The notes under the pieces: model-generated
Database searches by the model: none
Seen by the model: only the letters and a program-made list of their open reading frames with translations
Told to the model about the DNA's origin: nothing
Source: Clostridiales bacterium GWF2_38_85
GTDB taxonomy: Bacteria; Bacillota; Clostridia; Oscillospirales; CAG-382
Length of the DNA stretch: 64,000 nucleotides
Reading direction: 5' to 3'
NCBI GenBank assembly: GCA_001797275.1
Contig: MGOY01000032.1
Location: forward strand, 62,001 to 126,000
Part shown: piece by piece, positions 7,097-10,507 of the stretch
How positions within the stretch are numbered: position 1 is the first letter of the stretch
How the letters are laid out: every line of letters starts with the position of its first letter
Program-made: the position numbers and the translations under genes

Positions 7097-8734
7097 ATGG
7101 ATTATAGATATCTTGCTGAACTATTATATCCGGATGTAAAACATGATTATGAATATTACGAAAGCCTTTACCCTGTTCGCAATCTGCCTGAAGGAGCAAA
7201 GGTTACAAGAATTGCACCAAGCCCTACAGGATATGTTCACTTTGGAAGTATCTTTCCTGCTCTCGTCAGTGAAAGGCTTGCACGTCAAAGCGGGGGTGTA
7301 TTTTATCTTCGTATTGAGGATACCGATGAGAAAAGAAAGGTTAAAGGTGCAATTGAAGATATTATCAAATCATTTGATTATTTCGGAATAAATTTTGATG
7401 AAGGTGTTACGCTGAAAGAACAGAAGGGTAATTACGAACCTTATATACAGAGTCAAAGAGTCGAAATATATCATACTTTTGCAAAAAAGCTGGTTTCGGA
7501 GGGTAAAGCGTTCCCCTGCTTCTGCTCTGAAGAGACTATTGAGAATGATAAACAGCTGCAAGCGAAAAATAAAGAGATGATAGGATATTACGGTAAATAC
7601 GCGCATTGTATAAATTTGACTTGCAATGAGATTGAGAAGAAGATAAAAGACGGTAAAAAATTTGTTTTGCGTTTTCTTCCTGATGAAGTCACAAAAAATA
7701 ATGTTACGGTAACTGACCTTATCAGAGGCGCAGTTACAATAACTGATGATAATACAGGAAGAATACTTATAAAAAGCGACGGTGTTCCGACATATCATTT
7801 CGCCCATGCTGTTGACGATCATCTTATGAGGACAACACATGTTGTCAGAGGTGAGGAATGGCTTTCAAGTGTTATATTTAATATGCAGTTATTTTTAGCT
7901 CTTGGATTTAAACCACCCAAGTACATGCATATTTCAACACTTATGACTATTGATGGTGTAAGAAAAAAGAAGCTGTCAAAGAGAGATAAAGGTTCAGGAC
8001 TGAAAGAATATATCAAAAATGGTTATGCAGCAGAATCGGTTGTTGAATATGTTCTGACCTTACTCAACTCAAATTATGAAGACTGGCGTCGTGCTAATCC
8101 TGAATTACATTGGTCAGAATTTTCATTTTCAATCAAAAAGATGGGTTCAAGCGGCTCGCTGTTTGATTTCGCAAAGCTAAATGATGTAAGTAAAAATGTA
8201 ATATCAAACATGACAGCTTTGGATGTTTATAACAGATTAATTGCTTGGGCATCGAAGTTTGATAAAGAATTTTATGAGAAACTATCTTATGACAAAGAAT
8301 ATGCAATAGTAGTACTTTCAATCGGCAGAGGCGGTCCGAAATCAAGAAAAGATTTTGCTGTCTGGAGCGAACTCAGACATTATATGAGCTTCTTCTATGA
8401 CAATTGGTTTGAAATTACCGACAAAATCAACGAAAAATTCTCTTCAGCTGATATAATCGCTGCATTGAAGAAATTTGCTTCATGCTATAATGAAAATGAT
8501 ACGCAAGATATCTGGTTCGGTAAAATCAAGGACATTGCTGCATCATTGAATTATTGCCCCGACATGAAGTTATATAAGCAAAATCCTGAAGCTTATCAAG
8601 GGAATGTTGGTGACATTAGTATGTTTATCAGAGTAGCTGTAACCGGCCGTATAAATTCACCCGATTTATATACAGTAATGCAGGTATTAGGTAAGGAAAG
8701 AGTTATAGTAAGACTAAAAAGTTATTGTATATAA
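7097..8734 (+). CDS. gltX: Glutamyl-tRNA synthetase (gltX)
   Basis: Class I synthetase of 545 residues that charges tRNA-Glu. The HIGH-type motif is PSPTGYVHFGS at 41-51 and the KMSKS-type motif is KLSKRDKG starting at about residue 292. Both belong to the Glu branch of the family. The protein is longer than the ~480-residue textbook enzyme, as in a clostridial subgroup. A GGGAG ribosome binding site precedes the ATG. Its own promoter and a structured leader lie upstream. Since glnS is the next gene, this enzyme need not misacylate tRNA-Gln; specificity cannot be read from the sequence alone. Confidence 0.95.
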   Translation: MDYRYLAELLYPDVKHDYEYYESLYPVRNLPEGAKVTRIAPSPTGYVHFGSIFPALVSERLARQSGGVFYLRIEDTDEKRKVKGAIEDIIKSFDYFGINFDEGVTLKEQKGNYEPYIQSQRVEIYHTFAKKLVSEGKAFPCFCSEETIENDKQLQAKNKEMIGYYGKYAHCINLTCNEIEKKIKDGKKFVLRFLPDEVTKNNVTVTDLIRGAVTITDDNTGRILIKSDGVPTYHFAHAVDDHLMRTTHVVRGEEWLSSVIFNMQLFLALGFKPPKYMHISTLMTIDGVRKKKLSKRDKGSGLKEYIKNGYAAESVVEYVLTLLNSNYEDWRRANPELHWSEFSFSIKKMGSSGSLFDFAKLNDVSKNVISNMTALDVYNRLIAWASKFDKEFYEKLSYDKEYAIVVLSIGRGGPKSRKDFAVWSELRHYMSFFYDNWFEITDKINEKFSSADIIAALKKFASCYNENDTQDIWFGKIKDIAASLNYCPDMKLYKQNPEAYQGNVGDISMFIRVAVTGRINSPDLYTVMQVLGKERVIVRLKSYCI

Positions 8735-8762
8735 CTGGGCAGTAATTACGTATAATAGAAAG

Positions 8763-8857
8763 GTTAGCATAAAAAATACAAGAGATAGAGGTACGTCGGC
8801 GCGTACCTCCACTAATTTTACATAAATATTTGTGCCCGGAAGGGCGTGGAGGTTATC
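8763..8857 (+). ncRNA. glnS leader with two mutually exclusive helices (candidate translational switch)
   Basis: Helix A pairs GAGGTACG (8788-8795) with CGTACCTC (8802-8809), a perfect 8-bp hairpin. Helix B would pair ACCTCCAC (8805-8812) with GTGGAGGT (8846-8853), also 8 perfect pairs, and that second strand contains the glnS Shine-Dalgarno sequence. The two helices share bases 8805-8809 and cannot both form. A GCCC-GGAA-GGGC mini-hairpin (8834-8845) abuts helix B and could stack on it. There is no U-tract after helix A, so it is not a standard terminator. A TATAAT at 8751-8756 may mark a local promoter, but its -35 is poor. The regulatory role is inferred from the geometry. Confidence 0.6.
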
Positions 8858-10507
8858 ATGGAAGAAACAAATAATTTTTTATATGAAATAATAGATTCCG
8901 ATCTTGAAAAAGACAGGGTAGTTGAAATTCACACACGTTTTCCGCCTGAACCTAATGGTTATCTTCATATCGGAAGCGCAAAAGCTATATATATAAACTA
9001 CACTGCCGCAAAAAAATACGGCGGTAAATTCAATCTAAGATATGATGATACTAACCCGAGTAAAGAAGATGATGAGTATGTAAATTCTATTTACGAAGAT
9101 ATTATGTGGCTTGGCGCCGAACCAAACGGTGGTATTTTTTATGGATCTGATTATTTCGACAAATGTTACGAGTATGCGATTCTGCTTATAAATAAAGGCT
9201 TAGCATATGTCTGCAACCTCGATGCTGATCAGCTTCGCGAATACCGCGGTACACTTACTGAACCAGGTAAAGACAGCCCCTACCGCAGCAGAAGCATAGA
9301 AGAAAACCTTAAATTATTTGAACGTATGAAAAACGGCGAATTACCGAATGGTTATTGCACTTTACGTGCAAAAATAGATATGACACATCCGAATATGAAT
9401 ATGCGTGATCCTGCGATATATAGGATATTGCATATGCCGCATCATAGACAGGGCAGCAAGTGGTGTATATATCCCCTGTACGATTATGCACACCCGATTC
9501 AGGATGCTCTTGAAGGAATCACCCATTCGATGTGTTCTATTGAATTTGAGAATCATAGACCCTTATATGACTGGGTTGTTAATAACATAGATTTTGAAAA
9601 AAAGCCGCATCAATATGAGTTTGCAAGACTTAATGTAACAAATACAGTAATGTCAAAAAGATATTTAAGAAAGTTGGTTGAAACCAAGATTGTTGACGGA
9701 TGGGATGATCCAAGAATGCCTACAATCTGTGGGTTGAGACGCAGAGGCTACACTTCGGCATCAATATTTAAATTTGTTGAGCTTGCGGGTATTGCAAAAA
9801 ATTATAGTATTGTGGACATTTCATTGCTTGAGCATTGTATAAGAGATGAAATGAACATGTCAGCGGAAAGGCGAATTGCTGTAATTGATCCTGTAAAGGT
9901 TATAATCGAGAATTATCCTGAAGACAATGTTGAATATTTTAATATATCAAACAACCCAAATAATCCTGAAGCAGGCGAAAGACAGGTAGCGTTTACCCGT
10001 GAAATATATATTGACCGTAGTGACTTTTCAGATAGTCCTCCACCAAAATATTTCAGGTTAAAACCTGATGGTGAAGTCAGACTGATGGGAGCTTATATAA
10101 TTAAATATAAAGACACGAAGCATGATGATGCCGGAAATCTGGCTGAGATAATATGTACTGCCGATCTTGAAAGCGGTAATAAGAATCCTGTTGATGGTCG
10201 GAAAGTAAAGGGTACAATTCATTGGGTTTCAACATCAATTAACACAAAAGCGAATATTGTTATGTATGATAAACTTTTTAGTATCGATAATACTAACGAT
10301 ATCGAAGAAGACAAGTCATACGATGATTATTTAAATCCCGATTCTGTAAAGAAATTTAATAATTGTTATCTTGAAAAATCATTAGAAGATGCGAAACCGG
10401 GTGATAAGTTCCAGCTTGTCAGAGTGGGTTATTTCTGCAAAGATATAAAAATGTTTAACACCTTTAACCTTACTGTTGAACTGAGGGATTCAAAACCGAC
10501 AAAATAA
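8858..10507 (+). CDS. glnS: Glutaminyl-tRNA synthetase (glnS)
   Basis: Charges tRNA-Gln directly. The HIGH-type motif is PPEPNGYLHIGS (about 29-40) and the KMSKS-type loop reads VMSKR at about residue 263, the usual GlnS form. The C-terminal half is the beta-barrel anticodon-binding region. I chose ATG at 8858 (549 residues) over an in-frame GTG at 8846, because GGAGG lies between the two and serves the ATG. Direct glutaminylation by GlnS coexists in many Clostridia with the amidotransferase route; GatCAB is not in this window. The leader can sequester the ribosome binding site (see 8763-8857). Confidence 0.95.
   Translation: MEETNNFLYEIIDSDLEKDRVVEIHTRFPPEPNGYLHIGSAKAIYINYTAAKKYGGKFNLRYDDTNPSKEDDEYVNSIYEDIMWLGAEPNGGIFYGSDYFDKCYEYAILLINKGLAYVCNLDADQLREYRGTLTEPGKDSPYRSRSIEENLKLFERMKNGELPNGYCTLRAKIDMTHPNMNMRDPAIYRILHMPHHRQGSKWCIYPLYDYAHPIQDALEGITHSMCSIEFENHRPLYDWVVNNIDFEKKPHQYEFARLNVTNTVMSKRYLRKLVETKIVDGWDDPRMPTICGLRRRGYTSASIFKFVELAGIAKNYSIVDISLLEHCIRDEMNMSAERRIAVIDPVKVIIENYPEDNVEYFNISNNPNNPEAGERQVAFTREIYIDRSDFSDSPPPKYFRLKPDGEVRLMGAYIIKYKDTKHDDAGNLAEIICTADLESGNKNPVDGRKVKGTIHWVSTSINTKANIVMYDKLFSIDNTNDIEEDKSYDDYLNPDSVKKFNNCYLEKSLEDAKPGDKFQLVRVGYFCKDIKMFNTFNLTVELRDSKPTK

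Follow-up and report, generated by a model that had tools for sequence, protein, structure and literature searches.

What is the leader that precedes glnS in Clostridiales bacterium GWF2_38_85? In the window, the stretch of 64,000 nucleotides of contig MGOY01000032.1 that was analysed, the Shine-Dalgarno sequence (SD) of this gene can be masked by one of two mutually exclusive helices, and the initial annotation took this for a translational switch belonging to glnS. It appears probable to us that the leader is instead a copy of a small mobile repeat of Clostridia, about 90 bp long, which was inserted between the native SD with its spacer and the start codon of glnS. The features to which the text refers are the following.

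7097-8734, + strand: gltX, upstream of glnS and on the same strand (TIGR00464, 322.8 bits, above cut-off)
8758-8763, + strand: GAAAGG, presumed original glnS SD, left of the repeat (from comparison with the congener G001)
8766-8855, + strand: repeat copy (AGC...GGAGGTTA), boundaries to about 2 bases, from alignments of copies
8769-8771, + strand: place of the repeat's own start codon, here ATA (NTG in roughly half the copies)
8788-8809, + strand: left hairpin (8788-8795 with 8802-8809), competitor of the SD helix; strong here, weak or absent in most copies
8805-8812, + strand: left arm of the conserved helix, ACCTCCAC, paired and covarying across copies
8834-8845, + strand: inner GC hairpin beside the helix (73% of cells paired in 37 copies)
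8846-8853, + strand: right arm, GTGGAGGT, the apparent glnS SD; 5 nt separate its GGAGG from the ATG
8858-10507, + strand: glnS (TIGR00440, 682.7 bits, above cut-off)

The complementarities on which the annotation rested are all present. In the glnS leader, ACCTCCAC (8805-8812) and GTGGAGGT (8846-8853) are perfect complements, GAGGTACG (8788-8795) pairs perfectly with CGTACCTC (8802-8809) to form the left hairpin, and the inner hairpin at 8834-8845 is closed by GCCC/GGGC. The left hairpin and the SD helix are mutually exclusive since they have residues 8805-8809 in common. The minimum free energy fold of the leader (RNAfold, -25.2 kcal/mol) includes the left hairpin and the GC hairpin. The computed energies are -22.1 kcal/mol for this pair and -18.6 kcal/mol for the SD helix with the GC hairpin; the predicted fold of this copy favours the left hairpin, which would leave the glnS SD free. 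As modelled, the fold of the whole leader seems mildly unusual with respect to shuffled sequences (z = -1.73; 11 of 200 shuffles fold equally well or better). The complementarity to the SD is unlikely to be fortuitous, because an 8-nt perfect complement located 12-65 nt upstream was found for 2 of the 316 SD-like 5-mers on the two strands of the window. The statement that no known riboswitch or T-box is present also stands: Rfam gave no match at gathering score in the window, and none at E <= 1 for five loci.

The genome of this bacterium (2.83 Mb in 47 contigs, 96% complete) contains a dispersed repeat of about 90 bp in some 25 copies, and the glnS leader is one of them. A DNA search of this genome with positions 8735-8900 led to nine places. 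A covariance model built from six copies (R1) gave 25 matches at E <= 0.01, and a second model (R2) 24 at E <= 0.001. The aligned copies have conserved ends, AGC-NTG-AAA on the left and GGAG(G/A)TTA on the right, and those of the window's genome fall by sequence into two subfamilies, ACCTCCAC...GTGGAGGTTA and ATCTCCAT...ATGGAGATTATTATG. The genes behind them include glnS, secA, ferritin, yabP, spoIIIAB and that of a TatD-linked radical SAM protein. NCBIfam cut-offs are exceeded for glnS, gltX and tatD_link_rSAM; for ferritin, YabP, SpoIIIAB and SecA (a 200-residue fragment) those families are the best matches, under the cut-offs.

A regulatory RNA specific to glnS, as initially proposed, is contradicted by this list of unrelated genes in one genome. 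Relatives argue in the same direction. A survey of 60 genomes gave glnS-like matches in 55, and the best 30 loci, own included, were searched with a third model (R3). The repeat was found in the own locus and in none of the 29 from relatives, the upstream side of glnS being located in 27 of these 29. Among the 30 loci searched, the repeat at glnS is private to the window's genome. The sensing of tRNA-Gln, glutamine or GlnS itself is likewise unsupported, as the repeat also precedes secA, ferritin, yabP and others. A riboswitch or T-box leader of an aminoacyl-tRNA synthetase gene was rejected on two counts, the lack of an Rfam match and the unrelated nature of the genes downstream.

Outside this genome the repeat is scattered sporadically across families, and most of the sampled genomes have no copies. 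The pattern GCGTAYCTCCAYN{30,38}RTGGAGRTTA, scanned over a contig collection that may exclude the window's own genome, matched 15 stretches; one belongs to a Eubacterium MAG, the 14 others to Ruminiclostridium sufflavum DSM 19573. With model R2, 71 copies were detected in R. sufflavum, one in the Eubacterium MAG (G061), two in G025 and none in G001, the sole sampled congener. Of 60 genomes related to R. sufflavum, 5 contain the repeat; G408 has 60 copies, G403 and G410 have one each. Broader searches, run with stricter filters that may miss weak copies, found it in 3 of 394 genomes of the order, in 6 of 391 genomes at the class level (among them the own genome and, by identical coordinates, R. 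sufflavum and G408; G543 has 10 copies) and, in a phylum draw, in 1 of 398, which is the own genome. Such a sporadic distribution is as expected of a mobile element, and horizontal spread is its best reading. A two-copy R. sufflavum query had no match in plasmids or phages. The single pattern match in IMG/VR is devoid of the left end and loop of the repeat and was taken as chance.

Single copies from four other genomes (L068, L161, L163 and L189) are mutually close, for example AGCGTGAACGAATTAAAATACTGTAGTAATTTGACCGCGTACCTCCACGATAATTTCATTACTATTTGTGCC in L161, and may stand close to the ancestral form. Their translations from a common position give similar peptides (NELKYCSNLTAYLHDNF, KESKYSSNLTAYLHDNF); L163 and L189 are without NTG there. 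In G176, a different palindromic repeat (ATATACTTCTCGCAAAACCCGCTCTGTGGGTTTTGCGGGAAAGTATAT) interrupts one copy of the element (L156), and a palindromic repeat similar to it lies beside the remains of another (L158).

Sites without the repeat can be read in G001. In this congener, GAAAGGTTGATTAAATAAT stands directly before ATGGAAGAAC at glnS, where the window has GAAAGGTT followed by the repeat. The look-up covered glnS and nine further genes, three of which (thioredoxin-like, galM and CDF transporter) had starts that were not matched. The six others (spoIIIAB, ferritin, radical SAM, VTC, secA and yabP) have no repeat in G001 and display a native succession of SD, spacer and start codon. The clearest case is spoIIIAB, which reads GAAAGGATATGAGATC-ATGGAGCTTGT in G001 and GAAAGGATTTGATTC-repeat-TTGGAACTTGT in the window's genome, the repeat being preceded by the native SD with almost the entire spacer and followed by the start codon. 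More generally, an SD-like match of at least 4 nt lies just to the left of 48 of 74 non-array copies; among the 740 windows used as controls the proportion was 24%. Left out of this count were 53 copies belonging to arrays and three matches beside N. The comparison of species suggests that the repeat moved, presumably by targeted insertion.

Placement was scored on 130 aligned matches from 98 fetched loci, a set that takes in 40 R. sufflavum and 20 G408 regions and not every known copy. An ORF of at least 45 codons follows in 82 of them, and its start codon lies exactly 5 nt past the right arm in 77 of these 82; the alignment model R3 was built from copies containing an ATG and may favour such copies. 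Three of the 77 (L139, L144 and L170) are probably array junctions, judging from the translations. The same 5-nt spacing was seen in the own-genome copies found earlier with R1. Another copy follows in 15 of the 130, and neither an ORF nor a copy in 33, several of these belonging to arrays that the script left unjoined. The proteins encoded behind the R. sufflavum copies look, from their sequences, like LexA, cysteine synthase, the RNase P protein, D-Tyr-tRNA deacylase and CdsA. The genes behind the repeat are altogether unrelated and have no common theme or pathway. One of them, cdsA as read from translations, is found behind copies at L120 of R. sufflavum and also at L167 of G408, which suggests that some insertions are old and have been kept.

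Tandem copies share the junction GGAGGTT-AGC-NTG and follow each other with a period near 92 bp. There are four copies at L069, three at L072 and, according to the model, nine in the largest array (G408:C1:639192-640019, L166). The last copy of an array adjoins the ATG of the gene. On the simplest reading, the right end of one copy is the landing site for the next, and the existence of tandem arrays is explained by this further landing place.

The helix that masks the SD is conserved among the copies. Among 37 copies, the outer helix is paired at 98% and the inner helix in 73% of cells. In the two helices together, both sides have changed in 8 of 12 pairs and the observed score was reached by 0 of 500 shuffles, it being understood that the copies counted are related to one another, so that the events are not independent. 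When the partners are slid out of register, pairing falls from 90% to 41-50%. One of five covariation measures (further pair types) was not above shuffles (124 of 500). In the 130 matches, with an alignment that was itself fitted to the structure, the outer helix is paired in 990 of 1035 cells, and 89 copies form all eight of its pairs. The view that the SD-masking helix is not a chance pairing is thus upheld, by the compensatory changes on both sides as well as by the 2 of 316 sites mentioned above. Covariation had been proposed as a check on both of the competing helices. The SD helix and the inner helix do covary among copies of the repeat. The left segment is strongly folded in 7 of the 37 copies (at most 2 of 200 shuffles equal it), with none of the 13 R. 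sufflavum rows among them, and the anti-sequestor helix was therefore abandoned as a general feature of the family.

Two genomes have divergent stems, AAGCCCAT/ATGGGCTT in G176 and AGGACCAT/ATGGTCTT, with one G-U, in G543. Their right arm reads GGGCTT or GGTCTT, which is not an SD, and the 5-nt distance to the start codon is nonetheless kept in all 5 of their aligned copies. It follows that the helix and the 5-nt abutment are the invariant properties, and that the SD is found in most subfamilies, not all. The preservation of the helix where the right arm is not an SD counts against SD masking as the original function of the element.

By script, NTG occurs at the left end in 66 of the 130 copies and is absent from 64. 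The ORF that begins at this NTG stays open past the left arm in 50 of the 66. Of 62 distinct left ends with NTG, 48 keep this frame open beyond the left arm, and 24 do so in the +2 frame. Owing to the relatedness of the copies these cases are not independent; the +1 frame is closed by construction, since NTGA contains TGA. The peptides of the upstream ORFs differ among genomes. A relay in which translation of the upstream ORF opens the hairpin would fit this anatomy. When the left arm was covered in computed folding of 16 copies, the SD became freer in 9, less free in 6 and was about unchanged in L040; it is because of this disagreement between copies that the relay is put forward tentatively. 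In the window, the copy has ATA in place of NTG. It therefore has no start for an upstream ORF, and the relay would not work at glnS.

Taken together, these data can be arranged in the following scheme. The repeat would insert, singly or in tandem, between the native SD plus spacer of a gene and its start codon. In about half of the copies, the left end AGC-NTG-AAA brings the repeat's own start codon behind the native SD. The right end, which is the 3' arm of the conserved hairpin, presents GGAGG-TTANN in most subfamilies at 5 nt from the start codon of the gene. This GGAGG would serve the gene as a new SD and the next copy as a landing place, and translation of the gene presumably now uses it. 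Where an upstream start codon exists, translation of the upstream ORF would open the hairpin.

No mobilising enzyme was identified in a search limited to the Y1 transposase and reverse transcriptase families. The Y1 transposase (PF01797) is present in R. sufflavum, G408, G025 and G176, and was not found in the window's genome (G000, 96% complete) or in G543, a result that leaves an IS200/IS605-derived palindromic element, or a Y1 mobiliser, unsupported. Several partial Y1 matches lie at the very ends of R. sufflavum (G060) contigs, so that this draft seems to be broken at an IS200/IS605-type element. Neither G025 nor G176 (47% complete) gave a match to reverse transcriptase (PF00078), which is for this reason unsupported as a common mobiliser. 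The only PF00078 match of the window's genome is at G000:C32:51663-52322, about 10 kb to the left of window position 1. Integron attC sites carry the R boxes RYYYAAC and GTTRRRY; the GCGTACC and GTTAGCN of the alignment depart by eye from both, and this candidate was rejected. Inspection of the alignments by eye revealed no terminal inverted repeats at the ends of the element. The inverted arms are situated one about 40 nt inside the left end and the other at the right end, and the left end, AGCNTGAAA, is not complementary to the right end. TTAG-like letters flank some copies; by eye, comparison with the G001 sites gives no constant target duplication. Nor was a composite copy, of the kind expected from a related autonomous element, seen by eye among the own-genome matches.

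How else might the placement be explained? An ordinary MITE, mobilised by a common transposase, could have left copies at start codons as the remainder after selection on random insertion. We regard this as unlikely, although it is the most serious of the alternatives: the repeat is small, dispersed and sporadic between genomes, and known small interspersed repeats have been judged parasitic (PMC3049150). Selection should however have allowed other intergenic positions and varied SD spacings, whereas 77 of 82 copies stand at exactly 5 nt; in addition, by eye, there are neither terminal inverted repeats nor a constant target duplication, and the Y1 transposase, the one transposase family searched for, was not found in G000. 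Shared translational control, that is, a regulon of 5' UTR switches answering to one trans factor or condition and spread by useful duplication, is more doubtful still. Exact placement before start codons, the conserved SD-masking helix and the occurrence of cdsA behind copies in both L120 and L167 are in its favour. It has to contend with the lack of a common theme among the downstream genes, with a repeat not found in the sole sampled congener and present in 3 of 394 genomes of the order, with arrays of four to nine copies and with the SD-less stems of G176 and G543.

The two remaining alternatives concern the glnS locus itself. The window copy does have two exclusive helices of similar stability, as a glnS-specific riboswitch or autoregulatory leader would, but the element also stands before unrelated genes and 29 of 29 glnS loci from relatives are without a match, which makes this explanation highly improbable. 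Least credible of all is a chance complementarity between an ordinary leader and its own SD. The z of just -1.73 for the whole-leader fold speaks for it, and against it are a repeat family with covariation and the rarity of such complements, present at 2 of 316 SD-like sites only. We favour a mobile repeat inserted at the start of glnS. Dispersed, abutting start codons, missing from the same sites in a relative, stacked, covarying and sporadically distributed, it may represent, at a likelihood that we place slightly short of even, a class of elements that target translation starts: they would insert between SD and start codon, use the native SD for their own ORF, provide a hairpin-guarded SD for the gene, recreate their target and stack.

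Most small repeats are intergenic and cause little damage there. In contrast, this one is placed where a gene is most sensitive, between SD and start codon, even at housekeeping genes such as glnS and secA, and carries a replacement. If its exact spacing reflects targeting, then bacteria possess a mechanism of insertion able to recognise the starts of translation, and how a start codon would be recognised, on DNA or via the mRNA or the ribosome, becomes a new problem. The search for riboswitches should also take warning from this case, as an attractive SD-masking "switch" before a synthetase gene may prove to be a mobile element.

Translational attenuators of the ermC type combine a leader peptide with a hairpin that sequesters the SD, and are leaders of single genes. 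The clostridial repeat resembles them by its short upstream ORF and its SD-hiding hairpin; it differs in being multicopy and dispersed, and a stalling peptide would be hypothetical here.

No description of the repeat was found among open-licence PMC papers, as judged from titles and abstract openings, and an element that comes between an SD and its start codon and provides a new SD is undescribed in the available portions of PMC3049150, PMC4679880 and PMC10969869. Three known systems nevertheless come close. According to PMC3049150, the BOX, RUP and SPRITE repeats of Streptococcus pneumoniae are short, folded and dispersed, and most other streptococci have almost none of them; ORFs occur in some large BOX elements, and the authors judge the three families parasitic. 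The clostridial repeat is similarly short, folded, dispersed and sporadic. However, the pneumococcal repeats are over-represented between convergent genes, and the exact abutment on start codons with replacement of the SD is, as far as the available text goes, unreported for them (PMC3049150). The TAACTGA direct repeats of Beggiatoaceae, as described in PMC4679880, lie mostly within several nucleotides upstream of start codons, with no pattern of gene function and with some presumably essential genes behind them, and in the author's view their distribution suggests horizontal transfer. The clostridial repeat is likewise start-proximal and associated with genes of no common function. Unlike the TAACTGA unit, which is 7 nt long, has little SD character and precedes ORFs that are for the most part without an obvious ribosome site, it brings a ribosome site with it (PMC4679880). 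Finally, the Rickettsia palindromic elements are presented in PMC10969869 as inserts of about 150 bp with a short ORF, integrated in frame within the ORFs of unrelated genes. The clostridial repeat shares with them the short ORF and the company of unrelated genes, but it is inserted directly 5' to the start codon and not within the ORF (PMC10969869).
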